Source: Accumulibacter sp. (GTDB taxonomy: Bacteria; Pseudomonadota; Gammaproteobacteria; Burkholderiales; Rhodocyclaceae). Taken from it: a stretch of DNA of 36,956 bases. How positions within the stretch are numbered: position 1 is the first letter of the stretch; the number at the start of each line of letters is the position of its first letter. The position numbers and the translations under genes were made by a program. The notes under the pieces were generated by a model. It worked only from the letters and a program-made list of their open reading frames with translations, did not search any database and was not told where the DNA came from. The stretch is from assembly GCF_023806635.1 (NCBI RefSeq), contig NZ_JAMTDQ010000011.1, positions 1 through 36,956 on the forward strand, given 5' to 3'. This document shows, piece by piece, positions 12,729 through 33,947 of this stretch.

Positions 12729-13090
12729 GAAGGAACCTCTGGAAGATCGTATGCGTGAAAGTCAGGCCGAAAACGGGCGATGGGGGCGGCAAGCGCAGGT
12801 GAGCGAACGGCGCCGAGGGTCGGGGGCATGCCGCCTGCCGGCATGTCACGGCTGCTGCAGCGGGACAAGGGCGCCGCCTGGCGACGGCCGGCAATTGTAC
12901 CGCAGGCGTTCGTATCGCGGCGGTACGATGTGAGCGGGCAATTGACGCCGTTCCCGGCACGGGCCTACCATAAGGCAACGCGTTTCGTTCTTCCTCCTGC
13001 CGCCGGCGGCTCCGCTGGGGAGGTGTGTGCCGCGGGACACGACGAGGTGGGCGTCCCCTTCGACCCAATAGTCTTCCAGGAGCAAGCCAC
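12729..13090. promoter_or_regulatory. Divergent control region of ybiT and the stress protein gene
   Basis: This 362-base stretch separates two divergent genes and should carry both promoters. An inverted repeat GTACCGC (12897-12903) with GCGGTAC (12920-12926) is the clearest structured element. No good -10/-35 pair could be fixed. An AGGAG ribosome binding site lies just before the ATG at 13091. No protein-coding frame in it looks real. Confidence 0.4.
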
Positions 13091-13534: not shown

Positions 13535-13541
13535 CCGTGCG

Positions 13542-13558
13542 CCGGCGGTGGCCGCCGG
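13542..13558. terminator. Hairpin between converging genes
   Basis: CCGGCGG, a three-base loop TGG, and CCGCCGG form a perfect seven-pair stem eight bases after the universal stress gene stop. It lacks a T-run, so it is at best a weak or factor-aided terminator. It sits at the junction of the conserved backbone and the accessory island. Confidence 0.35.
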
Positions 13559-13618
13559 GCAGCCGTCGTTCCCTGCTGGCGAAGCGAAACGTGCCGCTGT
13601 TGCCGCTGTATCACGGCA

Positions 13619-15229
13619 CTAGGGTTCCCGCAGTTGCACCAAGGCTCCGAGCAGGCGGCGGTGGCAGCCTGCTACCTGCGCGACACTGTAGGGGTCTGCA
13701 AGGGAAGCGAGGCTGATTGGCGCGAATGTCAGCCGTCCCTGGCCAACACGCAGCGTTGCACACACGATGCGGGGGGAGTGCGGCTCGTTGCTCTCGGTGA
13801 TCACGATTGCCCCGTCTGCTGCGGCCGGTGGTCGCAGCAGACGGACCAGTCGGAGGTCGAGCGCCAGTGTCCACGGCGCGTGTCGCGCCAGGCACCCGGT
13901 ACCGCGCACCTGCCACACGGTCTGAGGGTCGCCAGGTCGCGCACTCCAGTCGGCCAGATCACCTCCAAACTCCGACAGAACGCGCCTGATGGCGCGCTCA
14001 CCGGCTCCCCAGCTCTCGTAGAGAGCCAACAGGTGGCCACCAGCCGCCAGAAGCTCGCGGTTGCCGGCAGCAAGCACCTCAGTCACGGCATCTCCCAAGA
14101 GCAACAGAGTGGTCCGTGCCGGCGCTGCGAAGCCAGGCGCACGGGGCTCGGTCGCCAATGGCGCTGGAGCGACGGCGCGAAGGTGGAGCAGCGCGCTTCT
14201 GGTGGTCCGCTCGTTGGCGATCAATGCGAATGCGCGCGAACTTGGTCGGCGCAACCAGAGATCGACGGCCTGAGCCTGAATCCGGTCAAGCAAGTCGGAG
14301 ACGCCGTCAAGCGCGACGCCAGCGTTCTCCGTTTGCCCCGCCGCGAGTTTCCCGATCAGTGCGAGATCGTGCCTGAACGTCAGCGATGACGCGTTGCACC
14401 GGTTGCCGAGCAAGGGGCCGGTGGTATAGATCGGAGTTCTGCTGATACGGCGACCGTAGTCCTGCCACGTGTTGATAGTCAGCTTAAGAAGGTCCGGCAC
14501 GCGCAGATGCTGCTGCACCTCATGGCGACCAAACTGGGCTCGCTGTGCGTCGACTGGCTGCCAATGCGCTGCAACCCGTACCTCGCACGTCGGGTGATAG
14601 AAGCTCCGGATACCCAGCCATCGGCACAGCATCGGCGGCGCCTGCCGCCAGACCTGCTTCGCCTGCGCGTGCCAGACGGGCGGGATCAGCGCCACCTCTT
14701 CTACCAACCGTGCCGGGATGAACAGAGCCCGACACAGCGCCGTGACTACTTGGGCGATATGCAGCGAGCTTCCCCGGCGGCGGGCGATGATCTCGAGAGG
14801 GGTCGCGGTGCCCCACTCGGGAGACCATGCGACGGTACCTCCGACCCACCAGAAAACTCGATACGCCGCTTCCTCTGGTGAGGATGCCCCTGCTGCAATG
14901 TCCCAGGCCAAGTCACGGTGGCGTTCGAAGGAATCGGGCGGGAGATAGGTGGTCACCCGTTGCACGACCGGCACCCAGTCCGGAAGGCAATGATCGATGA
15001 AGGTACGCCAGTCCGGCGGGGCCCAAGGCGGCAGCCGGGCGAACATCGCCCTCAGGGAATCGGCGCCGTGCCACTGGACAAAGCGCAACAGACTGGCATC
15101 GTCAGCGCCTTCGAGCAGGGACTCGACCCACGGGCGTGACGCCGTCGGGACCGCGCTCAAGACGTAGGTGCGCACCGCATCCCGGAAAGGCGTTGAGAGT
15201 CGTCGCCAGGCTGGCGGCGCCGCAAGCAA
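13619..15229 (-). CDS. Transglutaminase-like protein with Ser replacing the catalytic Cys
   Basis: A 536-residue protein of a type I do not recognise as a named family. Residues about 115-230 resemble the transglutaminase-like core: PLEIIARRRGSS, then ALCRALFIPARLVEEV, SFYHPTCEVRV and HWQPVD. The catalytic His212 and Asp227 can be aligned, but the position of the usual Cys (in G-x-C) is Ser155. A C-terminal domain (about 370-536; LLLLGDAVTEVL, GGHLLALYESWG, GQGRLTFAPISL) looks like a flavodoxin/amidotransferase-like alpha-beta fold; this is only an impression. It is the last gene of the island's minus-strand run. The TTG start at 15229 overlaps the decarboxylase by 73 bases; a GTG at 15175 would overlap by 19 and is a real alternative. 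In lasso-peptide systems a transglutaminase-like protein removes the leader, which is one possible role here. Confidence 0.6.
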   Translation of the reverse strand: MLAAPPAWRRLSTPFRDAVRTYVLSAVPTASRPWVESLLEGADDASLLRFVQWHGADSLRAMFARLPPWAPPDWRTFIDHCLPDWVPVVQRVTTYLPPDSFERHRDLAWDIAAGASSPEEAAYRVFWWVGGTVAWSPEWGTATPLEIIARRRGSSLHIAQVVTALCRALFIPARLVEEVALIPPVWHAQAKQVWRQAPPMLCRWLGIRSFYHPTCEVRVAAHWQPVDAQRAQFGRHEVQQHLRVPDLLKLTINTWQDYGRRISRTPIYTTGPLLGNRCNASSLTFRHDLALIGKLAAGQTENAGVALDGVSDLLDRIQAQAVDLWLRRPSSRAFALIANERTTRSALLHLRAVAPAPLATEPRAPGFAAPARTTLLLLGDAVTEVLAAGNRELLAAGGHLLALYESWGAGERAIRRVLSEFGGDLADWSARPGDPQTVWQVRGTGCLARHAPWTLALDLRLVRLLRPPAAADGAIVITESNEPHSPRIVCATLRVGQGRLTFAPISLASLADPYSVAQVAGCHRRLLGALVQLREP

Positions 15230-16425
15230 ACCAAGTCACCGTCCCGTTGTTGGAGCAGTACGGGGCAGTGCCCGTGAATGAACTCAAATGCCAGTGCCAA
15301 ATCGTAGCACCCCACCGCACCGATCTTGAGCAGGTCACCCACGGCCAGGTCGGCCGGCAAGGCGCAATCCGCCCGGATGATGTCTGTTTCCATGCACAGC
15401 GCGCCGCACAGGAGGGTTGAGCGAAGGCCATTCAACGCTTCGTCGCATTTGCCGACGCGTGCCACCGGGTGTCGCAGCCAATTCGCCGTAGGAACCTGAT
15501 GTACACCGCTGTCGCAGGTGACCTGGCGTCCGACCGCGCCTTCGCGTACATGGACAACGCGAGTGACCAGCACCGCCGAATCCTCGACGAGGATCCGCCC
15601 CGGTTCCAGCCACAACTCGACGCGATGCAGCAGTCGAGTCGTTGCCAGCGCGTTGCGTATTTCGGCAACGATGGAACCGGGACCGTCCGGACGCCACTGG
15701 CCGGGCGACTGGTGCAGCGGGCAGGAAGTAGGCGTGGCGAAGCCACCGCCAAAATCAAGCACCTCCAGGCGCCGGCCAAGAACCCGCTCGATGTCGCGCC
15801 AGCGTTCCGCCAACTGACCGGCCGCCTGACCATAGCTTGCGGCGGCTGAGATGTTCGTTCCCAGGTGGCAGTGCAGCCCGACGACCTCGAGGGACGGCGA
15901 TTCGGCAGCCAGCGCCAACGCTGCAGCAAACTCCGCACCCTCCACGGGCATGCCGAAACGGCTCCAGCCCGCTCCGCCCGCTTGCCCCGGACGCACGCGC
16001 AACAGCACGCGGGCCGGGCGCTGCCTCGAGGCAACGGCAGCGACAGAGCGTATGTCGGCGACGCCGTCAGCGACGACGGTTGCTCCCAGCGCGATGGCGC
16101 CGCGAAAGGTCGTTGCATCCCGCGCCGGCTGATTCAGGATCAGCGAGTCGGCGGCGATTCCGTGCGCCGTCGCCGCTGCGAGTTCCCTGCCCGAAGCCAC
16201 TTCAGCGCCCAGCCGCGCGGCTGCGAAATAGCGCCGGACATGGCTGAGGGGGCTGGCCTTGTAAGGCAGAAACAGCCGGGCCCCTGCCGTCGCCTCTTCG
16301 ACCAGGCGCCGCCGAGAGTCCAGCGACGCCTCATCAATCAGGATGAAGGGGGTGCCGAAGTCCTGCGCGAGGTCTCGGGCGGTGCGCGCATCAAGCCGGT
16401 CGAATGCCGATTGCCAAGGGTGCAT
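15157..16425 (-). CDS. Type III PLP-dependent decarboxylase (LysA-like)
   Basis: A 422-residue enzyme of the alanine racemase-like barrel family that contains diaminopimelate, ornithine and arginine decarboxylases. The PLP lysine is Lys56 in LPYKASPLSHVRRYF. Further motifs are GLHCHLGTN (183-191), the phosphate-binding GGG (226-228), EPGR (274-277), the CMETD loop with Cys344 and Asp348, and Tyr374 in GCYD. All expected catalytic residues are present, so it should be active. It is unlikely to be the housekeeping LysA: the substrate-binding segments differ and it sits in a peptide-modification cluster. I chose the ATG at 16425, which shares a base with the stop of the 61-residue peptide (TGATG coupling); a GTG at 16452 is possible but badly spaced from any ribosome site. 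Substrate is unknown: a free amino acid or a residue on the peptide. Confidence 0.8.
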   Translation of the reverse strand: MHPWQSAFDRLDARTARDLAQDFGTPFILIDEASLDSRRRLVEEATAGARLFLPYKASPLSHVRRYFAAARLGAEVASGRELAAATAHGIAADSLILNQPARDATTFRGAIALGATVVADGVADIRSVAAVASRQRPARVLLRVRPGQAGGAGWSRFGMPVEGAEFAAALALAAESPSLEVVGLHCHLGTNISAAASYGQAAGQLAERWRDIERVLGRRLEVLDFGGGFATPTSCPLHQSPGQWRPDGPGSIVAEIRNALATTRLLHRVELWLEPGRILVEDSAVLVTRVVHVREGAVGRQVTCDSGVHQVPTANWLRHPVARVGKCDEALNGLRSTLLCGALCMETDIIRADCALPADLAVGDLLKIGAVGCYDLALAFEFIHGHCPVLLQQRDGDLVCLRRRQPGDDSQRLSGMRCAPTS

Positions 16426-16610
16426 CAGGAGGCGCCGCCGGTCTCGCGCCACTCCTCTGCCCGCGCGCTGTCAAGCCGGGCGGGCGGCTTCCCCTCGTCG
16501 GCTGGTTCGGGGCTGGGAAGGAAGCCGGGCATCTTGGCCGACGAAGTCGCGAAAAAGGGCGCGATGCGCTCGATCGACGGCGCCGAATACGGTCGCCTGA
16601 TGTCAGACAC
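16425..16610 (-). CDS. 61-residue peptide, candidate RiPP precursor
   Basis: A small protein between the ATP-grasp ligase and the decarboxylase. Residues 8-13 read Y-S-A-P-S-I, followed by ERIAPFFATS, matching the Y-x-x-P-x-(L/I) leader motif that lasso-type precursors use to bind PqqD-like recognition domains; such a domain is encoded two genes upstream. The remaining part (about 24-61) is rich in Pro, Ala and Glu, has no cysteine, and has a single Trp54. The GTG start overlaps the ligase stop by eight bases, has GGAGGGG six bases upstream, and the stop shares a base with the decarboxylase ATG. This fit on both sides argues for a real gene. The leader role is inference; a carrier peptide on which a residue is built is another possibility. 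Confidence 0.7.
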   Translation of the reverse strand: MSDIRRPYSAPSIERIAPFFATSSAKMPGFLPSPEPADEGKPPARLDSARAEEWRETGGAS

Positions 16611-17658
16611 TCAACACCCCTCCAACGGCGACGTCCACGAAGCGCGACAACGGAATCGTCCGGTCATGGTGTTGCCGTACCATCACGAGTCCGGTGCGAA
16701 AGCCCGGGTCAACGTCGAGAGGCTCTCCCCGGAGAAGCCGGATGAGATCGAAGGGTAGGTTGCTGCCAACCTCCGTCGCGATGCCAATCCACGATGGGAA
16801 ACGTGTGTTGAGTTCCAGCAAGGTCAGCATTCCGCTGGTCTCATCAATCTTCGCCTCGACCTCGCATGGCCCGGACCATTGCAGAATTTCCAGCAGGCGC
16901 TCACAGGCCGTGAAAAAGGAATCGTTGCGGAAGGTCACGCCACACCATGTTGTTCCTTGCTCGTTCATGCCGAACTTGCGCATGGCGATCCAGCGCCGCA
17001 AGCGTCCGGGCCGGTCACAGAGGCAGGCGGCGACGATCTCCGCTCCAATTGCCTGCGCCTGTACCAACACGGGCAGGCCCCAACGGCCTGCCAGAGCCCG
17101 GAACAGCGCTGGAATCTCATCCGCTTGCTCTGCCCTGTGGGCTTCGTAGAAAGCGCCCTTGACCATCACCGGGAAGCCGATGAACTCTGCAGCGCGCAGC
17201 GCTTCGTCGAGCGTCCGGGCTGTTCGTAGCGTCGGCACGCGGAAACCGGCTGTCCGGCCCGGCTCAGCGATTGCCCACTTGGCAGCCTGTGCGGCCGCCG
17301 ATGGTGTTGGCAGCAGGGCGCGCAGGCCATGCTGCTCGAGCCAACGCTCCTGCCCGGCAAGAAATGCAACCTCCGGATCGAGTGTCGGCAGCAACGCCCC
17401 GGCGCCCGTCGCTGCAGCGACCGCGTGCAGGCGTTGCAGGTACGCTTGCGGGTCGGCTTCGATGCGCGGCATGCGGTATACCCGGTCGAACAGACCATCG
17501 ACGTAGGCGCCCGTGTCGGTGGGCTCGTAGCACAGGCCGATCACGCGCACGCCTTCGTGTCGCAGGCAGCGGGCGACGGAAACGCCCGGAGACGGGTTGT
17601 CGACCGCATGCAGACCAGTCACCAGCACCGCATCACGCGCACCGGCGTTCGCGCTCAT
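16603..17658 (-). CDS. ATP-grasp ligase (CarB/PylC-like)
   Basis: A 351-residue ATP-dependent carboxylate-amine ligase. N-terminal pre-ATP-grasp fold (1-115) with a DAVLVTGLH strand; ATP-binding lysines Lys127 in AAKWAI and Lys167 in FPVMVKG; the adenine-side QAQAIGAEIV loop; and the magnesium-binding E-x-N-x-R at 282-286 (LLELNTRFP). It should activate a carboxylate as an acyl phosphate and join it to an amine. The ATGA overlap with the PqqD gene and the eight-base overlap with the peptide gene suggest that the peptide is its substrate. It does not show the extended features of microviridin-type graspetide ligases, so the bond type is unknown. Confidence 0.82.
   Translation of the reverse strand: MSANAGARDAVLVTGLHAVDNPSPGVSVARCLRHEGVRVIGLCYEPTDTGAYVDGLFDRVYRMPRIEADPQAYLQRLHAVAAATGAGALLPTLDPEVAFLAGQERWLEQHGLRALLPTPSAAAQAAKWAIAEPGRTAGFRVPTLRTARTLDEALRAAEFIGFPVMVKGAFYEAHRAEQADEIPALFRALAGRWGLPVLVQAQAIGAEIVAACLCDRPGRLRRWIAMRKFGMNEQGTTWCGVTFRNDSFFTACERLLEILQWSGPCEVEAKIDETSGMLTLLELNTRFPSWIGIATEVGSNLPFDLIRLLRGEPLDVDPGFRTGLVMVRQHHDRTIPLSRFVDVAVGGVLSV
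16617..16623 (-). promoter_or_regulatory. Ribosome binding site of the candidate precursor peptide
   Basis: On the minus strand this reads GGAGGGG, six bases before the GTG at 16610. It lies inside the 3' end of the ATP-grasp gene. It decides the start of the 61-residue peptide and is one of the strongest ribosome sites in the island, as expected for a precursor made in excess of its enzymes. Confidence 0.6.
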
Positions 17659-17915
17659 ACCAGGAGTCCGTAGTCGCGCAGACGCGTCAGGAAGGCTTCC
17701 ACATCACCAGCCACATCGGTGCCCGGTGGTACGTCGAAGCTGTCGGCGACGGCAGCCATCAGCGACGCCAGCGACTGTTCCGCCGACAGCAGCTGCTCGA
17801 CCAGCAAGGCACCGGCCGCGTCGAGCAGATAGACAAAGCCGTAACGCTCCTCGAACAGGAAGGTCTGCCCGTCGGAACTGCTCTCGACCCGTGCGCCCGG
17901 CAGCTCAAGACGCAT
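17655..17915 (-). CDS. PqqD-like protein (RiPP recognition element)
   Basis: An 86-residue protein with the PqqD fold pattern: a beta hairpin region (FLFEERYGFVYLLDAAGALLVEQLLS) then helices ending DVEAFLTRLRDYGLLV. PqqD-like domains bind the leader of ribosomally made peptides and present them to modifying enzymes. Length (about 85-95) is normal and the protein looks complete. Its ATG lies inside the 3' end of the KGGVGR ATPase gene (11-base overlap) and its stop overlaps the ATP-grasp start (ATGA). No pqqA, pqqB, pqqC or pqqE is near, so it is not part of PQQ synthesis. The likely partner is the 61-residue peptide. Confidence 0.82.
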   Translation of the reverse strand: MRLELPGARVESSSDGQTFLFEERYGFVYLLDAAGALLVEQLLSAEQSLASLMAAVADSFDVPPGTDVAGDVEAFLTRLRDYGLLV

Positions 17916-20574
17916 TCGTGCCTTGGCGCCGCGGTGACCACAGAGGCACGTTCAATTGGCCAAGCGCTTGCCAGGCGGCCTTCAGGTGGGGGTTGCTGCT
18001 GTGGGCGACAAAAGCCACCGGCAAGGTCCACGGCCAACTCGCCAGGCCAGGGTTCGTCGGGACGGCGCCGTCGAGCGGTTGATCCGGTTCCCTGACGGAG
18101 CCGCCGGGGAGTTCGGAAAGCGATCTCAGCAGCGCCGGAGCATGCGTTCCTGCATCGAGCAGCGCCAGGACCAGGCGCAACTGTGCAGCCCGCAGACTGT
18201 ATCCGGCCTGCTGACGACTGTCCGCCTCGTCACTCAAACGTTTACTCAGGCGCTTCCGTTCCGCGTCATCACCTGAGCCCCGTGCCACCGCCAGGATACC
18301 CTCGAGCAGTAGTAGCGGGTGACGCAATTCCGGATCGAGGTCAGGAGGAGAAGGCGCTTCGACGCGTGCAGCACGATCCCGATACGTGCAGACCTGCTGC
18401 CAGATGCCTTGCGCTCTGTCCAGGCCGCCACGATCGTCACGATCGTCCGAGCAGCTCAGCAAGAGCCGTACATGTTCCAGAGCGATCAGCGCCGGCAGTG
18501 CCGGGTCGAAACGCCACGTCTGAACAAGAGCGTTCGTGTCCTTGAGACCGGCGTCCAGGAACTCCTGACTTCTTTCCAGGGATCCGTCCCAGTAGTCGCT
18601 CAATGGACTCAGTGCCTTGGATAGTTCGCCAGCAATGCGGTCAACGTCCCCTTTGGTCCAGGCATGTGTCGCGAGAAATCCGCTCCATCTGGCGAGGGCC
18701 AGCCGGAACGCCGTTGCCGGGATGCGCAATTCGATTGCATGCCCGATCCGCTCCCGCCAGTCGTCTGGCTCGCGGTCGTCAATCACGAACAGGGAAGACT
18801 GCAGCACATCCAGATCGGATTCTCCGACGCGATCCTTGTCCTCGCGGAAAAGTTCCAAGGCTATCTTGATGCATTCCCCGGCCGGGACTCCCTGCCCCTG
18901 CTCGTACCGCAGAAGCCCCATGGCGTGATGGAAGTCAGCCGCGACATGCTGGCTGAGGATTCGTGCGAAAGGGGCTGACGGTGACGGCTGATCCGACGAT
19001 CCTTGAATACAGCGTTCGGCATCCGCCAGTGTCGCCTCGATCCCGTCGAGTTCCGTGCCCCGCGCGAGATCGATTCGCGCCATCTGGCACTGAGTGAGGG
19101 AGAGCAGAAGCGGTCGCGCCGCCAGCCTGCGATAGAGGTCGCAGGCCTTAGCAGTCCGCCGCGCGGCATCTTCCCACCGGTTCGACAGCATCCAGGCATA
19201 GCCTTCGCGCAGGTTGGCCAGCGCCAGAAGATCCCGAATCCGCGCGTCGTTGTCGTATTCACTGGAGAGGGCCTCGAGCCCATGCCGGGCTTCATTGGCG
19301 GCTTTGGCCGAGTCGGGAAACCTGTTCAGCAGGATGTAACGGAATGCCAGCGCCAGCCCCAGACGAGCCTGCTCGATTCGGATCGGTTTGCTTGTGGTGT
19401 TGGTGTTGTCGATGTCGTTGAGCTTTTCGGCAGTAGCGTCGGGGTCGAGCGCGTCGAGGTCGGCAAGCAGCCATCCCAGACGCGCCTCCTGCCACGTCAG
19501 ATCCTGCCGCGTCGGGTTCTGGTTCGCAGGTCCGTCTGCTTGCGGGATTCGCTTGGCGAGTTGCTCGATCCTTTCGCGCGCTTCGTCGTAATGGGCCTTC
19601 GACACCCGCCACAGTCCCATTTCCCACAACCTTCTGCCGCTTTCGATCAGATTCTCGGGCGATTCCGGATTGCGCCTGGCGATCTCGCCAGCAAGCTGCT
19701 GATACGGCCGTGTCACGCTGGCGAGAAAGGCGTCGCCAGTCGGATCGTCGCTGTTCATGCGACGAAGCAGAATCTGGTCTGCTTCACCGACTGCCAACAG
19801 ATCCAGATAATCGATCTCGACGTCGACGGGTCGGCCCAACTTCGCGCGCACGGCTGCGACCCGCTCGTTGCGCAAGCTCCACTCGCCGCGCGGCATTGGC
19901 GAAGCGGCAACGACGATCTCGATCGGCGTTTTTTCGTACCCCGGTTTGCGCTTTGTCGATCCGTCCCGGGCGCAATCGCGGTTGCATTTTTCGATGGATC
20001 TGATGCGGCCGGCGATGCCTTCGATCGACTGTTGCGCCAGATTGGTCAGCAGGACGACGAGATCGGGCATATGAACGGTGCTGATGAATGCGACATCGGT
20101 CAGTCCGGTCCGCGCGTCGATGAAGAGGTATTCGTAGCCCAGATAAGCCAGATCGGCGGCCAGATTGACCATGAACCGGTCGCCCTCATGCCTGATGTAG
20201 AAGTCGTACCAGGAAAACGTGTGCAGTTGCGACTCGTAGCTCTCGTCGGTGTGGTTGCCGGCTGCCAGGAGTGCGATGCGTCCCCCGGGTCCCAGCCCCT
20301 CTCGGAGATACTGCTGGTTCCAGTTCGGCGGAACGTCCTTACGTTCCTGATAATAGGTCGCCAGCTCGCAGAAACCCATCCGCCGTTGGTGCGATTCAGT
20401 CGATGGTGGACTCGCCGGATCACGCAGGTTTGCAAAAGACAGCCCAGGAGCCTCGAGATCCAGATCGAGCAGAGCGATACGCCGACCACGCAGCGCCATG
20501 AACCAAGCCGTGTTCAGTAGCGTCGCCGTCCTCCCGACGCCACCTTTGTAGGAGTAGAAGGAGACGATAAACAT
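17905..20574 (-). CDS. KGGVGR-type ParA/MinD-like ATPase with TPR-like helical half
   Basis: An 889-residue protein. The N-terminal third is a SIMIBI-class P-loop ATPase: deviant Walker A YKGGVGRT (9-16), LLDLDLEAPGL (35-45), and the Walker B-like LFIDARTGLTD. The exact KGGVGR form and the long helical repeat region after it (about 290-889, with alternating Ala/Leu/Arg helices such as ARLGLALAFRYILL and ARIRDLLALANLREGYAWML) match a class of ATPases that other work has placed in NTP-dependent signalling and conflict systems. It starts directly after the stop of the upstream gene (TAGATG) and overlaps the PqqD gene, tying the two modules together. No nuclease or other toxic domain is seen in it. 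Its actual function is not known. Confidence 0.8.
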   Translation of the reverse strand: MFIVSFYSYKGGVGRTATLLNTAWFMALRGRRIALLDLDLEAPGLSFANLRDPASPPSTESHQRRMGFCELATYYQERKDVPPNWNQQYLREGLGPGGRIALLAAGNHTDESYESQLHTFSWYDFYIRHEGDRFMVNLAADLAYLGYEYLFIDARTGLTDVAFISTVHMPDLVVLLTNLAQQSIEGIAGRIRSIEKCNRDCARDGSTKRKPGYEKTPIEIVVAASPMPRGEWSLRNERVAAVRAKLGRPVDVEIDYLDLLAVGEADQILLRRMNSDDPTGDAFLASVTRPYQQLAGEIARRNPESPENLIESGRRLWEMGLWRVSKAHYDEARERIEQLAKRIPQADGPANQNPTRQDLTWQEARLGWLLADLDALDPDATAEKLNDIDNTNTTSKPIRIEQARLGLALAFRYILLNRFPDSAKAANEARHGLEALSSEYDNDARIRDLLALANLREGYAWMLSNRWEDAARRTAKACDLYRRLAARPLLLSLTQCQMARIDLARGTELDGIEATLADAERCIQGSSDQPSPSAPFARILSQHVAADFHHAMGLLRYEQGQGVPAGECIKIALELFREDKDRVGESDLDVLQSSLFVIDDREPDDWRERIGHAIELRIPATAFRLALARWSGFLATHAWTKGDVDRIAGELSKALSPLSDYWDGSLERSQEFLDAGLKDTNALVQTWRFDPALPALIALEHVRLLLSCSDDRDDRGGLDRAQGIWQQVCTYRDRAARVEAPSPPDLDPELRHPLLLLEGILAVARGSGDDAERKRLSKRLSDEADSRQQAGYSLRAAQLRLVLALLDAGTHAPALLRSLSELPGGSVREPDQPLDGAVPTNPGLASWPWTLPVAFVAHSSNPHLKAAWQALGQLNVPLWSPRRQGTNAS

Positions 20575-21708
20575 CTAACCAGGGCCGCCTACGCTATCCT
20601 TCTGTTGCGCCGGATTGCCCTTGTGCATCCAGTTCTCCCCGGATCCGCTGCCACTCTCTTTTTTTTTGCCCTTGGCGGCCAGATACGCCTCAATTGACGT
20701 AACGTTGTCCGGCAGCCCGTTGGCTGAAGCCTTACCACTAGCAGTCTGGCCACCCGGGGGTGAACGGTTAGCTGCCAGCCACTCGCTTACCTCAACGGCG
20801 ATTTTCCTCCCCGACGCCGTCAGCTCGTATCGATCCTCCTGACTGTCGACCCGGCGAATCGGCGGAGAACTGAGAGCAAACACCAACTGCTCACTGAAGC
20901 GGTCGGGTTGCTCGACACGAGGCTCGGACCGCAGCTTTTCGCGAATGGCTGCACCTTCGAGTAGTGTGGTTGCCGTCGCCGCGTCACCGAACCAGGCAAG
21001 GAAGCTGAGCAAACTGCAGTCCGCGATCGACGAAACGGCTTTCTCCAGATCCTCGGCCTGCAGAGCACGCGCCGTCTTGTAGCCCCAGCGCGTCAGCTCG
21101 TAGAGACCAGCGCTGGGGCCGGCTCGTTTGACGAGCCGATAGGCTGTCAGGGTCTGGAGGCGGTTGAAAACCGCGTTCAGTTTCGGCTGCGTGTCATCGT
21201 CGTTCGTCGACCCTCGCGCATCGTCTTCGCTGGGCCCCTCTGAGCGCGTGCTGCCGGTTTCCCCGACACGCGCGGCGATCTCGGACAGCCTTCGGGGAAC
21301 CGGATCTCCGGTTTCGTTGAGGAACGCAAGCAGGTAACCCGGGCGTTTGTCATCTGCCCTGACGAAGGCCAGGAGTTCTCCGACGTTGCCGCCAGGTTCG
21401 CTCCTAAGCCCTGCTTCAGCCAACAGCACGCCCCACGCCCAAGCATGTCCCCAGTCCGCCAAGGTCCATCTCTCCCGTGGGCCGTCGCCGTGCCGGAAAG
21501 CCTCATGAGCGGCCCTGTTGAGCGCGTCGCGTGTCCTCTTCACGGCGTTGCGCTGCGAATCCACCAACGCCTTGGCGAGCATGGTCCGAAGGTCCTCATC
21601 GAGCTGGCCCAACTTCTGTTCCGTCGGCGAAGAGAGCGTGTCTGCCGTCTGTGCGCGCACCTGGCGCAACCGCTCTTCAAATTCCTCGTCCGGATTTCCC
21701 TGGTTCAC
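20575..21708 (-). CDS. Unknown protein with two winged-helix-like segments
   Basis: A 377-residue protein that I do not recognise. The N-terminal part (1-75) is charged and probably coiled coil. Two later segments look like winged helices: KLNAVFNRLQTLTAYRLVKR with YELTRWGYKTAR (about 175-215) and PIRRVDSQEDRYELTASGRKIAV (about 285-307). The end is low in complexity, with a KGKKKESGSGSG run. It could be a DNA-binding regulator or an adaptor for the ATPase, to which it is fused back to back (no bases between the genes). The start is GTG with AGGAGG exactly six bases upstream; no better start exists. Base composition looks lower in GC than the flanking backbone genes. Confidence 0.6.
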   Translation of the reverse strand: MNQGNPDEEFEERLRQVRAQTADTLSSPTEQKLGQLDEDLRTMLAKALVDSQRNAVKRTRDALNRAAHEAFRHGDGPRERWTLADWGHAWAWGVLLAEAGLRSEPGGNVGELLAFVRADDKRPGYLLAFLNETGDPVPRRLSEIAARVGETGSTRSEGPSEDDARGSTNDDDTQPKLNAVFNRLQTLTAYRLVKRAGPSAGLYELTRWGYKTARALQAEDLEKAVSSIADCSLLSFLAWFGDAATATTLLEGAAIREKLRSEPRVEQPDRFSEQLVFALSSPPIRRVDSQEDRYELTASGRKIAVEVSEWLAANRSPPGGQTASGKASANGLPDNVTSIEAYLAAKGKKKESGSGSGENWMHKGNPAQQKDSVGGPG

Positions 21709-22018
21709 TGTAATCCTCCTGACCCTGGCTGGTCGGTGGGCCCGCCGCTACCGCGCTGGTCGCTGGCGGTCACCGTCTACATCGCATGCGCCATGGGCTG
21801 CCGCGTCTCGGCGAGACGCTCCCGGCAATCAGTAAAGTTTACCTCGAAACTACACGGATAGTACACGCTACACATACGCATCGCGCTCAAGAGGGCTACG
21901 GACGGCATCCGGACAGCGAAGACAACGTCGCGGGAGTGCCACACCTGTGAACGAAGTGAATTGGGCGTGTAGTGACGAGCGAACGGTTCTCTCGCGGTCG
22001 CGTTCGTTACGGTTCCGC
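21709..22018 (-). promoter_or_regulatory. 310-base control region before the KGGVGR operon
   Basis: The only sizeable break in the island's minus-strand run. It holds a 17-base palindrome at 21803-21819, a second short palindrome GTAAAGTTTAC at 21832-21842, and the AT-rich patch 21830-21880 with a TACTAT that could be a -10 box on the minus strand. No convincing -35 is seen. The AGGAGG at 21715-21720 is the ribosome site of the next gene. No gene of its own was found. Confidence 0.4.
21803..21819. repeat. 17-base perfect palindrome, operator-like
   Basis: GCGTCTCG, one central base, then CGAGACGC: an 8-1-8 perfect inverted repeat about 95 bases before the GTG of the winged-helix-like gene. 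Its form fits binding of a dimeric regulator; as RNA it would give a seven-pair hairpin with a three-base loop. Confidence 0.4.
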
Positions 22019-23770
22019 TCAACTCCAGTCCGGGCAGGCGACTTCTGCGATCCACAGACATTCCCGGCAGACCTCGCAGCAAGGTGCCCCTTTCTTCGCG
22101 CACTTTTCCACGTCCGCCGGCTGCTCCCGATCTTCCGCTGTGCTCAGACTCGAGCAGACCTCCGGCGTCAGTGGCGGTACGACGGCGCCGTCAACCGGGC
22201 TGCTCGGCCCATTGGCGCGCTTCCATTTCACTCGTGGCTTCCCGTCTGGCGAACGCGAGGAAGACGCCAGCCCGGCACGCGCAGCGTCCCAGGCACTGAA
22301 CTGCTCGATCAGCCAGCAGGCGTTCGCCATTATCGAGGTAGTCCCGGAAGTGTTGGCGAAGTCCTTCGCACGCCACTGGAACTCTCTTGTGCTTGTGCTC
22401 GCGGCCGGCACCAGGATCCAGTCGGCCAGACCGGCATAGCGTGGCAGCGCGCTGCGCCCTGCGGTCTTGAGAAAATCAAGACAGATGGTTACCCAGACGC
22501 GCCCGATCGGCGTATCGACGACCAGAATCTCCTCTGCGACGCGGGAAGGCTCCACGCTGACCGCATGATGGTCCAGACCGAATTGCGAGTAGTGTCCTGT
22601 CGGACCCTTCTCCTGCCGCCGCAGCTTGAACTGATGTCGCTTGTCTACCAGCCACTTCCTCCAGCCCAGAGCCGGATTCGTGGATTCGTTTGGCGTGATC
22701 TTGGCTTCGCATCCATCGCCGGTCAACACGACGCAGCGGTTGCGGAACGACGGAGGATCAGCAGCGGCTTTCGATTCAACTGCCGACTTATCTGCCGGAT
22801 CAGTTTGATCGTCATGATAGCTGCCACAGACGACGAGCCAGGGAAAACCTTCCGCCGAGTTGCTCTTCTTGGCGTCCCAGTGCTTGCCGAGCAACTCCTG
22901 AAACCACTTGACGAAGCCCGCACTGCTGGTCAACTCGGGGATCAGCACGACATCGATTCGGTTGCGCGCGCAGGCTTCCAGGACGGTCTCCGCCTGGGCT
23001 TGCCGAGCGGCGCTCGTCAGATCGTCGGGAGGCTTGATGCGATACACGCCATACGTGTCGTCGCTGCCGCGATGGGGGCTCGGCAGCTTCCCGGTGTATT
23101 GCCCACACATGGCGAGCTCACGGCCAATCGGCCAGACGCCAATCCTCACAGCCGGCTGCACTCCGGAATGCTCGTCGCGGTTGCCGGGTGGCGCAAACCA
23201 TAAGCTGTGCACCTGCAATCGGGCACCATCGAGCGACAGCGGCAGAATCGACAGCATGGTCAACCACTGAACGTCCTCGAGCGAATGGCCAGTCGGCGGG
23301 ATGGGGGGATGCCGCGGACAGATCTGGTAGTCCGTTCCGTGCAGCGAACGCGCCTTGCGGACCGTCGGTCGCTGCCATTTCGCGGGACTCCACGGTCCCG
23401 TTTCTGCCACGGCCCATCCCCAGGTGGTCGAGAGTGCGTCTTCGAGCGCTTCGAGCAGCATCAAGAGCCGCAGCTGGCAGGAGTACGGCTCTTTGAGGAT
23501 TGCGGTGACATCAGGCGAAAAGGGCGTTGCGCCCGCGGCCGCAGCGCGCCACTCATCCAGGAGCAGGCTGAGCAGTTCCTTCTTGTCCCTTGCGTACGTC
23601 CCCAGTGAGGTCGTCCCCATTGCGGCCCACGCATTGAGCATCGCCGCTTCATGTTCCAGGACAAATTCATGCAGCGTGACGAACACCGCGGCAGCCGACG
23701 CCGGATCACTCGCAGGCGGTGCCAGGATCTCGTTCCACAGCTTCTCTGCTGCCTCAGCGGCAAGGGTCAT
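22019..23770 (-). CDS. Nitrilase-superfamily (C-N hydrolase) protein with long N-terminal extension
   Basis: A 583-residue protein. Residues about 205-490 form a carbon-nitrogen hydrolase domain with the Glu-Lys-Cys triad: Glu279 in VVLIPELT, Lys377 in LVDKRHQF and Cys430 in VTICLDFLK. Members cleave amides or nitriles or transfer acyl groups. The first 200 residues are mostly helical and unrecognised. The C-terminal tail has a cysteine cluster, Cys557, 564, 565, 568, 571 and 579, that is not part of the usual family and could bind a metal. It follows the radical SAM gene by 18 bases with GGAG before its ATG, and is separated from the next gene by a 310-base gap. Substrate is unknown; it could be NAD-like, amide-bearing or the peptide product. 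Confidence 0.75.
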   Translation of the reverse strand: MTLAAEAAEKLWNEILAPPASDPASAAAVFVTLHEFVLEHEAAMLNAWAAMGTTSLGTYARDKKELLSLLLDEWRAAAAGATPFSPDVTAILKEPYSCQLRLLMLLEALEDALSTTWGWAVAETGPWSPAKWQRPTVRKARSLHGTDYQICPRHPPIPPTGHSLEDVQWLTMLSILPLSLDGARLQVHSLWFAPPGNRDEHSGVQPAVRIGVWPIGRELAMCGQYTGKLPSPHRGSDDTYGVYRIKPPDDLTSAARQAQAETVLEACARNRIDVVLIPELTSSAGFVKWFQELLGKHWDAKKSNSAEGFPWLVVCGSYHDDQTDPADKSAVESKAAADPPSFRNRCVVLTGDGCEAKITPNESTNPALGWRKWLVDKRHQFKLRRQEKGPTGHYSQFGLDHHAVSVEPSRVAEEILVVDTPIGRVWVTICLDFLKTAGRSALPRYAGLADWILVPAASTSTREFQWRAKDFANTSGTTSIMANACWLIEQFSAWDAARAGLASSSRSPDGKPRVKWKRANGPSSPVDGAVVPPLTPEVCSSLSTAEDREQPADVEKCAKKGAPCCEVCRECLWIAEVACPDWS

Positions 23771-23788
23771 CGGCCGGCTCCGGTTGGA

Positions 23789-25069
23789 TCAAGTCAGCGT
23801 CGTTGCGGCGACGGCGTTCCGCGCGTTCGCCAGGGCCAGCAGTCGTTCCCAGGCAGACTGGATGTACGCGTCGGAACAATCCGAGAGGTTGGGTGCGTCC
23901 GCCCCGTACTCCGTGTAGACGTGCTGCGGTCCGAACTGCGGTGCGCTTGCCGCTGCCAAAGGCGTGTTGGGAAGAGGATTATAGCGGAAGGCGTCGACCA
24001 GGAGTCCAGGCTGCGCCTGCACGGCCGCCAGCGTTCGTTCGATCGCTGTCCGGCTCTCGCCCGGCCAGCCGATGACGACCGACGCACGCACGCGAAACCC
24101 CATCGCCATCGCCCGCTGCAGCGCCCCGCCGACGCCCCCTGCGGTCGGACCCTTGCGCAGCATGCCGCGGTGCGCGGCGTCGTCGGCTGTCTCGAAGCCC
24201 ATGTAGAGGGCTCGGCAGCCACCCTGCCAGAGTTCTCCAAGGGTCGCCGAAGTGGCCTCGGCGGTGCGCAGATCGACACCCCACAGCAGGGGGACGTCGA
24301 GGGCCCGGAGTTCCTGGCAGAAGTCCCGGCGCCATCGGGCACGGCTGACGAGTCCGTCGTCGACGAAGTAGAATCCGGTGACGCCGTAGCGCTGGTACAG
24401 GCCGCGGAGGCCGTGGGCCAGAAGCGGCGCTGGCATCTCGCGCAGGCCGGATGGTGCATGCGCAAGGGTGTAGCAAAAGGAGCATCGCGCGACGCATCCC
24501 CGGGAACCTGAGACGAAAAGGGTTGGTACGTCGAGGTCGGATCGTTCCGCCGGACGGACGTAGGGCCGCAAGTCAAACAGAGGTGCCGGGTCGAGGCAGC
24601 AGGCACCCAGATCAGCGTCCTGCGCTGGTGAGGCGTCCCTGAGGTTCGGCATCCCGGCCGCCATCCAGCGCAACAGCGTCGTTTCCCCATCGCCGGGCAG
24701 GACCGCGTTTACCAGCGCTGCAATGGTCGCGTTCGCCGGCAAGGTGGCCGCCAGTGGGCCGCCGAGTACACGACGAACGGCCGGATGGTGCGCTGCCGCG
24801 TGACGAAACAGTCGCTCGGCTCGGCGGGCTGCGCGGCCCCATTTTCCGGTCACGCCAAGGATGTCCGGCCGGAAATCGATGACTTGGCGGTCGAGAGCGG
24901 TTTCGAGCGCCGGCTCGCCATTCCAATCGACCACCTGTACGACGTGTCCGCTCCGCGCCAGGGCCTGACCCACGAAAATGACGCCCCAGGGTGGAAACTC
25001 TCGTCGCGCTCCGGTCTCATCGATTCCTGGATGGGCAAGGAGGACGCGAAGAGGTCGTGTTGCGATCAT
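23789..25069 (-). CDS. Cobalamin-binding-type radical SAM enzyme
   Basis: A 426-residue radical SAM protein. An N-terminal Rossmann-like domain (1-150; VLLAHPGIDETGARREFPPWGVIFVGQAL, PDILGVTGKWG, VLGGP) resembles the B12-binding domain of class B enzymes, though a DxHxxG cobalamin loop is not seen. The [4Fe-4S] cluster motif is C192-x3-C196-x2-C199 in SGSRGCVARCSFCY. Further barrel motifs are GFYFVDDGLVS, YMGFETADDAA and VIGWPGESRTAIERTL. Such enzymes perform methylations, ring closures and other difficult carbon chemistry, often on peptides or antibiotics. It is the first gene of the island's minus-strand run, divergent from the Nudix-like gene. Whether it acts on the 61-residue peptide cannot be told from sequence. 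Confidence 0.82.
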   Translation of the reverse strand: MIATRPLRVLLAHPGIDETGARREFPPWGVIFVGQALARSGHVVQVVDWNGEPALETALDRQVIDFRPDILGVTGKWGRAARRAERLFRHAAAHHPAVRRVLGGPLAATLPANATIAALVNAVLPGDGETTLLRWMAAGMPNLRDASPAQDADLGACCLDPAPLFDLRPYVRPAERSDLDVPTLFVSGSRGCVARCSFCYTLAHAPSGLREMPAPLLAHGLRGLYQRYGVTGFYFVDDGLVSRARWRRDFCQELRALDVPLLWGVDLRTAEATSATLGELWQGGCRALYMGFETADDAAHRGMLRKGPTAGGVGGALQRAMAMGFRVRASVVIGWPGESRTAIERTLAAVQAQPGLLVDAFRYNPLPNTPLAAASAPQFGPQHVYTEYGADAPNLSDCSDAYIQSAWERLLALANARNAVAATTLT

Positions 25070-25193
25070 GGGTGTCGTCTCGGGGGAGAGGGAAGGACCG
25101 TGACGGCGCGGCTTCGGCTACTCTCCGCGCCAGCTACGCCCGAGAACTGCCGCATTTCCGGAGATATGCCCGTCGACCATCCCAGGGCAGGCT

Positions 25194-25199
25194 ATCATA
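25194..25199 (-). promoter_or_regulatory. Possible -10 box for the radical SAM gene
   Basis: TATGAT on the minus strand, in the 224-base divergent region 25070-25293. The same bases read as TATCAT on the plus strand one position to the left, so the patch could serve both directions. No good -35 at 16-18 bases. Confidence 0.25.
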
Positions 25200-25293
25200 A
25201 CCGACTGGCAGAGTCGCAAGTTCCTCCGACTGGAGTATGGCTCCAGCGGACGGGAACCACGACACACTCGACGGACATGAGGGAGCGGCGTTT

Positions 25294-25968
25294 ATGGGAA
25301 GTGCCGTGATTGAAGACTGGGGGACGTGGCTCGCCGACCAGAGGCACTCCTGGATTGCTCACGTGCGCGCGGGGGGTGACGGATTTTTCCAGATTGGCAG
25401 CGGTGTTGGGCTGGGTGCGGTGGCCTTGTGTGTGGATGAGTTCACCGGTGACATCCTCGTGGTGCGCAAGTCTGTGCGCCCTGGGTACGAGTTCAGCAAC
25501 TTGTATGCGCTGCCCGGAGGGATGATTCGTTGGCGCACGGCCACTGAAGCTCTGCGGGACGCGATTGCCGGCTCCCTCTCTTCTCGGTGCGAGCGCGAAA
25601 CAGGGCTGCTGTTGTCCTGCGAGACGCCGCTGATACCCATCGACCTCTTCCCACCGCCGACCACGCGTTATCTTGCCAGAGGCGTTGTGCGGCATACGCT
25701 TGTGCTTCCCTTCCGCGTCGCCAGGGTGAGGCGCTTCGTTCCCCACGCCGGCGACGCGTCGGTCACCGAGGCGAGTTGGCAGCCCCCTGCCGTGGTCCTG
25801 CCAGCGATGGCGCCAGCGAACCGAGTCATTCTTGCCCACGGCTTGTGGTCCCGGCTGTCCGCAACTGCGCGGCGAGAGCTGGTTCCGTGCGTCCAGGAAG
25901 CAGTTGGCGTTTGTGCGGAGTGGGCCCGTTCGGTGGGCGTCGCGCCTGTCAGCCACTCATGGTCCTAG
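25294..25968 (+). CDS. Nudix-like protein with degenerate Nudix box
   Basis: A 224-residue protein with the Nudix fold order (GLGAVALCVDEFTGDILVVRK, then SNLYALPGGMIRW) but a damaged catalytic motif. Where the family has G-x5-E-x7-REuxEExGu, the region after Gly75-Gly76 has about seven extra residues and ends SRCERETGL (97-105), keeping only Glu102 of the metal-binding glutamates. Nucleotide hydrolysis is therefore doubtful, and a ligand-sensing role as in other non-catalytic Nudix proteins is possible. I chose the ATG at 25294, preceded by GAGGGAG; the frame is open upstream to 25237. It is divergent from the radical SAM gene and seems to end the island. Confidence 0.65.
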   Translation: MGSAVIEDWGTWLADQRHSWIAHVRAGGDGFFQIGSGVGLGAVALCVDEFTGDILVVRKSVRPGYEFSNLYALPGGMIRWRTATEALRDAIAGSLSSRCERETGLLLSCETPLIPIDLFPPPTTRYLARGVVRHTLVLPFRVARVRRFVPHAGDASVTEASWQPPAVVLPAMAPANRVILAHGLWSRLSATARRELVPCVQEAVGVCAEWARSVGVAPVSHSWS

Positions 25969-26269
25969 CTGCCCATCGGACTTCAGATCGGGAAAACCTT
26001 CCGGTGTCACGATGCGGCATGAATGGACCTCGGTTTCGCGATTTCCCTGCCGTTTCGCGGGTTGTTCCGTCGTTCATTGGGACTGAGGACGCGATGCCGC
26101 CATGCGCCTCGAGCTCTACGGTAACCAGAGCAGCGGTCCACTCGCCGGTGATCTGGTTCAATCTGCGCAGGGAGAACTGCTGAAGACCCTGTAGCGGTTC
26201 GATGATGCCGGAGACCGGTTCGACCGCCTGCCTGCGCAGACCGTGGAGGGTTCGGTTGGCCTTTGTCGG
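25969..26269. other. Convergent intergenic region, no gene assigned
   Basis: About 300 bases between the Nudix-like gene and the DASS transporter gene. Short open frames exist on both strands but lack recognisable domains. A small stem, GTCGG with CCGAC, overlaps the transporter stop codon on the minus strand; it has no T-run. The stretch may be the right edge of the island. Confidence 0.45.
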
Positions 26270-27682
26270 TCAGCCGACCCAGAGTATCCACGGGGTGCCG
26301 ACAACCAGAAACACCAGCAGGCAGAAAGTCGTCGTCAGCAGTCCCAGGCGGTAGAGTTCTCCCTGCTTGAGATAGCCACTGGCGACAAAGATGATGTTCT
26401 GGCTCCCTCCCTGTGGCGTGATGACCGAGAAGTAGCTGCTGGCGAACAGCAGCGCGTAGGCCATCAGGGCAACCGGCACACCCGATTTCACGCCAACGTC
26501 GAGAAAGACGCCGAGGAGCGCCAGCACCTGCGCGTTCTGACTGACGAACATGTAGTGCAGCAGGACGTAGATGACGAGCAGCGAGACGTAGGCCAGCGGC
26601 CAGGAGATGCCTTCGAGCGCCATCGCCAGTCGTTCTCCGACGTAACCCATGAAGCCCATCTCGTTGAGTTGTCCGCTGATGCCGAACAGCACCGCCAGCC
26701 AGATGAAGGTGACCAGCGTGCCCCCCTGTTGTTGCATGTCGTCGAGCGTCAGGACGCCGCTGATCAGCAGTGTTGCCAGGCCGGCAAGCGCGATCGCCGT
26801 CAGGTTGAGCTCATAGGGGGCTGCCAGCACCCAGCCGGTGATCATGACGGCGAAGGTCACCGCCGTGATCTGCTCGTGCACCGACATCGCTCCCATCGTC
26901 CGCAACTCGCGTCGTGCGTGTTCCGGAGCATGCGGAGTGTCGGTGATCCCTGGGGGGAAGAGCCGGTACAGCAGCAGCGGCAGCAGGGCAATGACCAGCA
27001 GCGATGGTACACAGGATGCGAGGAGCCAGGAGCCAAAGCTTACCTGCAGCCCGTGCTCGGCGGCCAGCCCGGCGCCGATCGGGTTGCCCGATGTGGCCGT
27101 GAACCACAGCGCCGAAGTGATCGCCAGGCTGGCCATACCGCAGAACATCAGGTAGCCGCCGAGGCGCCGCTTGCTGTCGTCGTCGGGTGTCGAACCACTG
27201 TTCTGGGCGAGCGCCAGGATGACCGGGAAAAGGACGCCGCCGCGCGCCGTGTTGCTCGGAAAGCCGGGCGAGATCAGTGTATCGGTGATGAAGATACTGT
27301 ACGCCAGGCCGAGTGTCGATTTCCCGAATAGCGACACGACCAACAGGCTGATCCGTTTGCCGAGGCCGCTCTTGACCACCGATTGCGATACCAGGAAAGC
27401 CGTTACGACCAGGAGGACGGTGGAGTTGGCGAAGGAGCCATAGGCCTTCGCCGGTGGCAGTGTGCCGGTCAGGACGACCAGCGCGCAGGCCAGCAGGGCG
27501 GATGTGAGGAGCGGCAGTGCATTGAGTACCACCGAGAGAATGGCGGCCGCGAAGATCGCAAAAAGTCGCCACGCGTCGCGCGTCAGTCCCTCGGGCACCG
27601 GCATGAACCAGAGACCACAGAAGACGAGCAGGACGGCCGCCAGCTTGAGGTTTCTTGCGCTTGCGAAACCGGATGTGCTCAT
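26270..27682 (-). CDS. DASS-family sodium-coupled anion/dicarboxylate transporter
   Basis: A 470-residue inner-membrane protein with about 11-12 hydrophobic segments, of the divalent anion:Na+ symporter family (SLC13/CitT). The two Ser-Asn-Thr sodium/substrate sites of the family are represented by SPGFPSNTARGGVLFPV and the TPQGGSQNI segment. It starts NLKLAAVLLVFCGLWFMPVPEGLTRDAWRLFAIFAA as do DASS carriers. Substrate (C4-dicarboxylate, citrate, sulfate) cannot be fixed. Its ATG overlaps the stop of the upstream lipoprotein gene (ATGA). It is the last gene of the minus-strand envelope run. Confidence 0.88.
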   Translation of the reverse strand: MSTSGFASARNLKLAAVLLVFCGLWFMPVPEGLTRDAWRLFAIFAAAILSVVLNALPLLTSALLACALVVLTGTLPPAKAYGSFANSTVLLVVTAFLVSQSVVKSGLGKRISLLVVSLFGKSTLGLAYSIFITDTLISPGFPSNTARGGVLFPVILALAQNSGSTPDDDSKRRLGGYLMFCGMASLAITSALWFTATSGNPIGAGLAAEHGLQVSFGSWLLASCVPSLLVIALLPLLLYRLFPPGITDTPHAPEHARRELRTMGAMSVHEQITAVTFAVMITGWVLAAPYELNLTAIALAGLATLLISGVLTLDDMQQQGGTLVTFIWLAVLFGISGQLNEMGFMGYVGERLAMALEGISWPLAYVSLLVIYVLLHYMFVSQNAQVLALLGVFLDVGVKSGVPVALMAYALLFASSYFSVITPQGGSQNIIFVASGYLKQGELYRLGLLTTTFCLLVFLVVGTPWILWVG

Positions 27683-33827: not shown

Positions 33828-33947
33828 GATGCCGCGCCGTTGCCCGCGGGCGCCGCTGGTTTGCAGCGGGTTTACGTGTCGCTACGGTGGTGCAGGGGGC
33901 CGACATACCCTCATAATTCCGGCTCATCCGCCGACCCTTCCATCCTC

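Follow-up and report, generated by a model that had tools for sequence, protein, structure and literature searches.

BtrJ is the glutamate ligase of the butirosin pathway. The decarboxylase BtrK is described as acting on glutamyl-BtrI, in which the amino acid is held as a thioester on an 87-amino-acid (aa) carrier protein, and FigC, like BtrK, as acting on a conjugated amino acid (PMC7857480). FigC has a methionine (M355) at the place where L/ODC, ADC and DAPDC carry an acid contacting the side-chain amine of the substrate (PMC7857480), and FigC, SbnH and AcsE are reported to act on the citryl amino acids of siderophores (PMC7857480, PMC8503589). BtrJ-like enzymes have been grouped with carbamoyl phosphate synthases (PMC4431377). 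The PqqD, FusE, McjB and StsC groups of recognition elements (RREs) of ribosomally synthesized and post-translationally modified peptides (RiPPs) are described as recognizing the sequence W/Y/LxxP/L/I (PMC12710340). Here we describe an operon of Accumulibacter sp. that encodes a PqqD-type protein, an ATP-grasp ligase, a 61-aa peptide with a recognition sequence and a decarboxylase of the LysA fold. It lies in a window of 36,956 nt, contig NZ_JAMTDQ010000011.1, to which all coordinates refer. Judging by sequence comparison, the PqqD, ATP-grasp and decarboxylase genes are an old core, and the core found in the window is an uncommon form related to a gene set present in many bacterial groups.

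An earlier note had drawn a possible RiPP-like pathway of five genes joined by overlaps from this DNA. All five frames are present on the reverse strand, from 17915 down to 13619. The overlaps are 4 nt between the PqqD and ATP-grasp genes, 8 nt between the ATP-grasp and peptide genes, 1 nt (TGATG) between the peptide and decarboxylase genes and 19–73 nt between the decarboxylase and transglutaminase-like genes (73 nt with the listed TTG start, 19 nt with the GTG at 15175, the start candidate closest to the start of the homologous protein in L043). It turned out that the five-gene unit was drawn too narrowly. Nine genes lie on this strand between 25069 and 13619, in the order B12-binding radical SAM, nitrilase-like, winged-helix-like, KGGVGR ATPase, PqqD, ATP-grasp, peptide, decarboxylase and transglutaminase-like. 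The ATPase gene overlaps the PqqD gene by 11 nt; upstream of it, the gaps are 0 nt to the winged-helix-like gene, then 310 nt to the nitrilase-like gene and 18 nt to the radical SAM gene. All nine genes occur in identical order in L043, a contig of a gammaproteobacterial metagenome-assembled genome (MAG) that is among the best 80 ATP-grasp relatives. Judged from this layout, the nine genes probably form one operon. The earlier note had made its reading depend on the conservation of the neighbourhood, which holds at two levels: the whole order recurs in L043, and the core of PqqD, ATP-grasp and decarboxylase genes recurs in most of the best 80 relatives. Domains of the nine proteins were assigned by Pfam and NCBIfam profile scans, to which the statements below on domains in the operon refer.

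Table 1. Features of the operon and of the stretch that contains it, with amino acid identity to the L043 counterparts.
Feature	Position	Strand	Identity to L043 (%)	Basis and remarks
B12-binding radical SAM protein, 426 aa	23789..25069	-	63	PF02310, PF04055; CxxxCxxC at residue 192; first gene of the operon
Nitrilase-like protein, 583 aa	22019..23770	-	34	E279, K377 and C430 invariant in five homologues
Probable winged-helix protein, 377 aa, partner of the nitrilase-like and ATPase genes	20575..21708	-	32	Weak similarity
KGGVGR-motif ATPase, 889 aa, possible TPR-like C-terminal part	17905..20574	-	40	NF047398 118.1 bits (cut-off 90)
PqqD-type RRE, 86 aa	17655..17915	-	47	PF05402 38.6 bits, E 1.4e-9; TIGR04353 39.0 bits
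ATP-grasp ligase, 351 aa, carbamoyl-phosphate-synthase-like / ATPgrasp_Ter	16603..17658	-	61	E282 and N284 invariant in 12 sequences
61-aa peptide: PYSAPSI recognition sequence, conserved centre IERIAPFFATSSAKMP, variable tail	16425..16610	-	60	GTG start
Pyridoxal phosphate (PLP) decarboxylase, alanine-racemase (LysA) fold, 422 aa, ATG at 16425	15157..16425	-	46	PF02784 E 1.1e-28, scanned from upstream GTG at 16452; motif C-M-E-T-D
Transglutaminase-like domain and C-terminal half of no assigned family; likely start GTG at 15175	13619..15229	-	44	PF01841 E 2.4e-11
12.7-kb stretch not present where uspA and the anion transporter meet in relative G009; contains the operon and the divergent open reading frame 25237-25968	13535..26275			Locus comparison

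To describe the wider family, we used the best 80 of at least 545 confirmed ATP-grasp relatives in genome contigs, which is not a random sample, and scored the presence of PqqD and of the decarboxylase in their loci by tblastn. PqqD was found in 73 and the decarboxylase in 78 of these 80 loci. Thus the three genes travel together, in line with the combination named in the earlier note. By their record titles, the loci come from Aquificota, Bacteroidota, Planctomycetota, cyanobacteria, myxobacteria, Gemmatimonadetes, Cloacimonadota, Zetaproteobacteria and other groups. With 23 loci from further genomes, 101 decarboxylase-bearing loci were available, some of them sharing one genus. L037, L038, L040, L060 and L118 gave no decarboxylase match, and L118 and L037 end shortly past the ATP-grasp gene. 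L005-L014 were excluded from the counts; L015-L023 are longer cuts at the identical places.

The small Y-x-x-P sequence of the earlier note also accompanies the three genes, in most loci as part of the decarboxylase itself. The decarboxylases of the relatives carry an N-terminal tail that is commonly similar to KKxYEKPxIxKxxxGxMNKFG, and the motif [WY]xxPx[ILVMFT] was found within the 60 residues ahead of the decarboxylase domain in 98 of the 101 loci. When the control was limited to the 99 loci in which 25 residues or more precede the domain, 98 contained the motif, against 3.7 expected by shuffling. Among other open reading frames of at least 200 aa in the same loci, 21 of 592 carried the motif among the 60 N-terminal residues. 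The full spaced tail motif occurred in 92 of the 101 decarboxylases and in none of these 592 frames. The loci without a fused recognition sequence are L039, a more remote homologue whose start is short, L120, in which the decarboxylase match is split into two pieces, and L043, which has a free peptide. A free-standing peptide was found in the window and in L043 only, among the loci examined. Two loci of one genome (L037 and L042, G513) apparently have two ATP-grasp genes between PqqD and the tailed decarboxylase. Their decarboxylase tail (PYVRPALSPLPFFTVNKQG) looks intermediate between the peptide of the window and the common NKFG tail; both pieces sit at contig ends and have sequence in common.

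We examined the peptide frame by comparison with L043. The sequence GGAGG directly precedes the GTG start, and the GTG start of the L043 peptide likewise overlaps the ATP-grasp stop; its TAG end lies immediately before the decarboxylase ATG. The centre IERIAPFFATSSAKMP, which was chosen because it is identical in the window and in L043, is read in the same frame in both: 16 of 16 residues are identical, and the codons differ by 10 synonymous and 0 replacement changes. Of the first 32 codons, 9 are identical, 13 synonymous and 10 replaced, and in the ungapped tail only 2 of 29 residues are kept. We therefore rejected a chance frame; on this codon pattern the peptide is a true coding gene under purifying selection. 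Its recognition sequence, YSAPSI, is thus encoded in a separate, precursor-like gene with a PF05402 PqqD gene one gene away, an arrangement that is generally looked for in RiPP pathways.

The decarboxylase is related to enzymes that act on conjugated amino acids. The N-citrylornithine decarboxylase (7kh2) is its best relative of solved structure by profile (325.8 bits), by single sequence and by the fold of a relative with a fused tail (L066), and BtrK is the second by single sequence. A methionine follows the catalytic cysteine, as CMETD in the window and as C-M-x-x-D in 71 of 78 relatives, including L043; of the others, one read differently and six were not parsed. From its kinship to FigC/FslC and BtrK together with this Cys-Met loop, we infer that the decarboxylase acts on an amino acid that the ATP-grasp ligase has first conjugated through its side chain. 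The suggestion that an amino acid is first ligated and then decarboxylated thus agrees with FigC and BtrK, the nearest solved relatives. The curated NCBIfam models gave 135.5 bits for FslC, against a cut-off of 500, and 154.9 bits for LysA, against 297.9. We rejected the assignment of this enzyme as the housekeeping LysA of the genome, since the true LysA is encoded on another contig (C91; 519 bits versus 154). In a tree of 36 rows, the window and L043 share a long branch that falls outside 32 relatives, a depth that is unsure because long branches attract each other.

The ATP-grasp ligase keeps the E-x-N of its fold and matches carbamoyl-phosphate-synthase-like, carboxylase, ATPgrasp_Ter, ATP-grasp_5 and PylC-like models. 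The PqqD-type protein exceeds the TIGR04353 cut-off of 35 bits, while that of one relative (L026) reaches only 22.2. An HPr-rel-A system was considered and rejected: a PqqD of the TIGR04353 type is present, and no HPr-kinase match was found in the nine proteins. A second PqqD domain of the genome is part of a 715-aa protein (L024 3425-5572, contig C85) that adjoins a SecA-like protein. The transglutaminase-like protein had been named correctly as to its PF01841 domain, but a serine, by eye, replaces the expected catalytic cysteine, also in L043, while the histidine and the aspartate are kept. Its C-terminal half gave no Pfam match better than E 0.3 and possibly has an amidotransferase-like fold, and a structure model built from two sequences only had a mean pLDDT of 36.4. 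Searches of solved structures gave 0 matches for this protein and 0 for the nitrilase-like protein.

Taken together, these enzymes suggest conjugation followed by decarboxylation, guided by an RRE and a peptide, a scheme for which we hold the chances about even. By its motif and family, PqqD would bind the YxxPxI of the 61-aa peptide. The ATP-grasp ligase may then link the side chain of an amino acid to an acceptor, which could be the peptide or a small acid bound by the complex, and the decarboxylase would strip the alpha-carboxylate from the conjugated amino acid. The transglutaminase-like and B12-radical SAM proteins might tailor or move the product, and the nitrilase-like, winged-helix-like and ATPase proteins might be a separable module that releases or senses it; both assignments are guesses. 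The product would be a small, amine-bearing molecule. As the relatives carry the recognition sequence on the decarboxylase itself, the sequence probably serves first to bring PqqD and the ATP-grasp ligase together with this enzyme.

The fused tail also bears on the possibility of a classical RiPP, in which the peptide would be a precursor and its modified centre would be excised and set free as the product. An RRE, a recognition sequence, a small separate frame, an ATP-grasp ligase, a radical SAM protein and a transglutaminase-like protein occur in one set, and the centre of the peptide is conserved while its tail is variable. However, in 98 of 101 relatives such a sequence is a tail of the decarboxylase, which would be spent in one turnover, and besides the transglutaminase-like protein no peptidase or exporter was found among the nine proteins. 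A consumed and released RiPP core is thus unlikely for the family, and we regard a classical RiPP as quite improbable here also. The description of the locus as RiPP-like is supported in part, for the RRE and for the peptide with its recognition sequence; a released core is hypothetical. Because a tail of this kind would hardly be released at each turnover, docking or a reusable carrier arm are better readings for the family. Both are versions of the shared scheme of conjugation and decarboxylation, and the confidences that we attach to the rival explanations overlap.

It is possible, and we propose it tentatively, that the peptide only docks: it would act as an adaptor or regulator without being bound covalently, and an ordinary small molecule, for example a polycarboxylate metallophore, would be the product. 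In a structure model of L066, the decarboxylase domain is confident, and tail residues 11-29 (pLDDT <50) are predicted to be unordered, like a free arm. The siderophore enzymes FigC, SbnH and AcsE mentioned above fit this explanation as well. In addition, a urea-transporter match follows the decarboxylase in 63 of the 69 loci that extend 1 kb or more beyond this gene (same strand, at most 1.5 kb downstream), which suggests a small product; an M23 part was also matched in 62, and a urea-transporter/M23 match stands anywhere in the locus in 64 of the 69. In L049 (10369-13898) the urea-transporter domain is fused to an M23 peptidase domain, with a counterpart in L064 (10506-14305). The protein that follows in both loci has no family match, and in L049 a TPR protein comes next; these are frequent partners. 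The urea-transporter/M23 protein is missing in the window and in L043. Thus the statement that the pathway has no transporter holds for the window but not for the wider family. Docking alone leaves the conservation of the 16-residue centre beyond the recognition sequence unexplained, and no NIS synthetase was found among the operon proteins.

A covalent role could explain this centre, though we regard it as somewhat doubtful. The peptide would take the place of BtrI: the ATP-grasp ligase would charge one residue of the centre, for example the Lys of SSAKMP, with an amino acid; the loaded peptide would next serve as substrate for the decarboxylase and the tailoring enzymes, and a hydrolase would free the product. 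The relation to BtrK and its substrate glutamyl-BtrI, the carbamoyl-phosphate-synthase-like ATP-grasp ligase, as in BtrJ-like enzymes, the purely synonymous changes in an identical centre and the presence of a nitrilase-like protein in the operon are consistent with such loading. So is a lysine at the NKFG place in 85 of 98 fused tails. The conserved centre of the peptide of the window is longer and contains Ser, Thr and Lys, so that a covalent role of the free peptide is possible. On the other hand, the thioester load of BtrI is a different bond. In its boldest form, this explanation says that the peptide and PqqD replaced an acyl carrier protein: amino acids would be loaded by the ATP-grasp ligase, decarboxylated and tailored on a ribosomal arm and then released, the arm being built into the decarboxylase in most bacteria and free, and tied to the ATPase/nitrilase-like module, in the window and L043. 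We consider this a rather long shot. If it is true, the decarboxylase with a built-in arm is a self-carrying enzyme.

Several observations weigh against the scheme of conjugation and decarboxylation, and some of them against its covalent form as well. Several DAP (diaminopimelate) and D-Orn/D-Lys decarboxylases outscore BtrK by profile, and by the fold of L066 BtrK ranks only 35th. The ATP-grasp ligase is related to carbamoyl phosphate synthase, carboxylases and D-Ala-D-Ala ligase as well, for which reason its bond type can only be surmised. The peptide of the window has no NKFG, and in members of its own genus (L016, L018, L019, L021, L022 and L023) the lysine of NKFG is replaced by Thr, Ser, Arg or Pro; a Lys-linked carrier thus cannot be universal. 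L060 (Marinobacterium jannaschii) has PqqD and ATP-grasp, with no decarboxylase match in the locus. Finally, just two genomes, one of which is a MAG, are known to have the form with nine genes.

The nine-gene form looks rare yet not unique. The radical SAM, nitrilase-like, winged-helix-like, ATPase and transglutaminase-like proteins had no match at E 1e-6 in the other 79 of the best 80 loci, whose lengths vary. The transglutaminase-like protein was absent from 149 other relatives (1 of 150, the genome of the window itself) and, with the L043 protein as query, from 397 other genomes of the phylum (1 of 398, again its own genome); the two samples may overlap. The nitrilase-like search matched 4 of the 398 genomes, that of the window included. 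Three of the loci, L148, L149 and L150, showed the company of this gene. In L149 the nitrilase-like gene stands with a winged-helix-like relative and a KGGVGR ATPase, and in L150 with the ATPase and, as the middle gene, one for a 353-aa protein that shows no clear relation. L148, at a contig end, has a nitrilase-like gene and a weakly related partner (E 2e-4 against the L043 copy; not significant against the copy of the window). No PqqD, ATP-grasp, decarboxylase or transglutaminase-like match was found in the fetched stretches of L148, L149 and L150. Because the nitrilase-like module occurs there without matches to the biosynthetic genes, the operon, by its gene content, joins two separable modules.

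The nitrilase-like protein of the window had no Pfam match, and the L043 copy reached 14.0 bits with CN_hydrolase (E 0.032), below the cut-off of 23.2; the positions of the Glu-Lys-Cys triad (Table 1) were judged by eye. For the winged-helix-like protein nothing exceeded a cut-off (best PF25213, E 0.034). Its window copy is 23.5% identical to the L149 relative over 200 aa (E 0.002), and the L043 copy matches this relative at E 3e-9. TPR matches of the ATPase were below cut-off and were obtained with the L043 copy alone. FxSxx peptides have been described together with radical SAM proteins in NTPase conflict systems (PMC7159879), and because of this pairing an immune or signalling role is possible. 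The nitrilase-like/winged-helix-like/ATPase module would then drive an immune-like response, and the peptide-guided enzymes would supply a signal or a toxin. The occurrence of the set without biosynthetic genes in L149 and L150, and of its first two genes in L148, agrees with this, as does the insertion-like setting in both hosts described below. However, PADLOC gave only a P-loop match for the ATPase of the window (PDC-M28B) and a weak Csa3 match for the L043 winged-helix-like copy (E 0.0028). The operon has no known effector domain, and no transglutaminase-like or ATP-grasp relative was confirmed in viral contigs, among records holding degenerate patterns. We consider a conflict or sensing system unlikely.

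The operon looks like an insertion in both hosts. In the relative G009, about 85 bp separate uspA from the anion transporter gene, the two neighbours that enclose 12.7 kb in the window. Three more relatives have 1.1, 1.3 and 4.8 kb at this place, with other open reading frames inside, and in four further loci only the uspA side was matched. Blastn at E 1e-8 matched nothing of the operon in these eight loci. In L043 the nine genes are flanked by a 159-bp direct repeat (1183-1341 and 12986-13144; 92% identical) derived from the 5' part of smc, and a long smc frame follows the second copy. Thus the operon was probably acquired horizontally. ARAGORN found no tRNA in the window, and no recombinase was identified, though recombinases were not searched for. 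Plasmids gave no match for the transglutaminase-like or the nitrilase-like protein and three distant ATP-grasp matches. The divergent frame 25237-25968 (+) within the inserted stretch had no Pfam match and is possibly NUDIX-like by eye. Near the contig end, a DDE transposase frame (34963-36378, +) overlaps the end of a PAS-domain frame (33738-35360).

Compared with described RiPP classes, the operon shares with lasso peptides and PqqD-dependent RiPPs a discrete PqqD-type protein, the W/YxxP sequence and a transglutaminase-like protein. It differs from them in the serine of the transglutaminase-like protein, in the absence of an asparagine-synthetase cyclase and in a recognition sequence that, in the relatives, is usually fused to the decarboxylase. 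No asparagine synthetase cyclase, YcaO or LanM domain was matched in the nine proteins, as the earlier note had observed. We rejected a lasso peptide (no PF00733 cyclase, no B2 model, PF01841 only, Ser for Cys) and a graspetide (no graspetide model matched by the ATP-grasp ligase), and both exclusions made in that note thus stand. To our knowledge, the microcin C pathway has no RRE or ATP-grasp enzyme. Decarboxylases of this kind are also known from peptide antibiotics: MccE, a LysA-fold decarboxylase, is described as acting on the peptide conjugate microcin C, on the 3-amino-3-carboxypropyl group of the peptidyl nucleotide (PMC7857480).

Among enzymes of small-molecule pathways, FigC/FslC (7kh2) is the best match by sequence and fold, and a methionine stands beside the catalytic cysteine in both; the decarboxylase of the window is far below the FslC cut-off, its operon has no NIS synthetase, and its relatives carry an RRE-type tail. 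Butirosin biosynthesis (BtrJ/BtrI/BtrK) likewise places an ATP-grasp ligase and an alanine-racemase-fold decarboxylase around a small carrier, and by kinship the pairing of a BtrK-related decarboxylase with an ATP-grasp ligase recurs in the window, BtrJ being likened by description and not by sequence. In butirosin the carrier is a carrier protein, whereas the window has PqqD and a YxxP peptide, and its relatives a tail fused to the decarboxylase; no acyl-carrier-type domain was found among the nine proteins. RREs are usually read as markers of RiPPs. Here, loci from many phyla carry an RRE-type recognition sequence on a metabolic decarboxylase, and this suggests another role for RREs, to hold together a small-molecule pathway or to carry substrates in it. 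We found no description of the gene set in the literature searched (open-licence papers only), in line with the earlier note, which knew of no such combination. With the set of PqqD, ATP-grasp, tailed decarboxylase and urea-transporter/M23 genes, which occurs in uncultured and cultured bacteria, the window shares the trio, its order and a similar recognition sequence; it differs in its free peptide, its five further genes and the lack of the urea-transporter/M23 gene. The new element thus appears to be a free-peptide, nine-gene variant of a widespread gene set, and this variant offers a compact system for setting docking against carrier chemistry.

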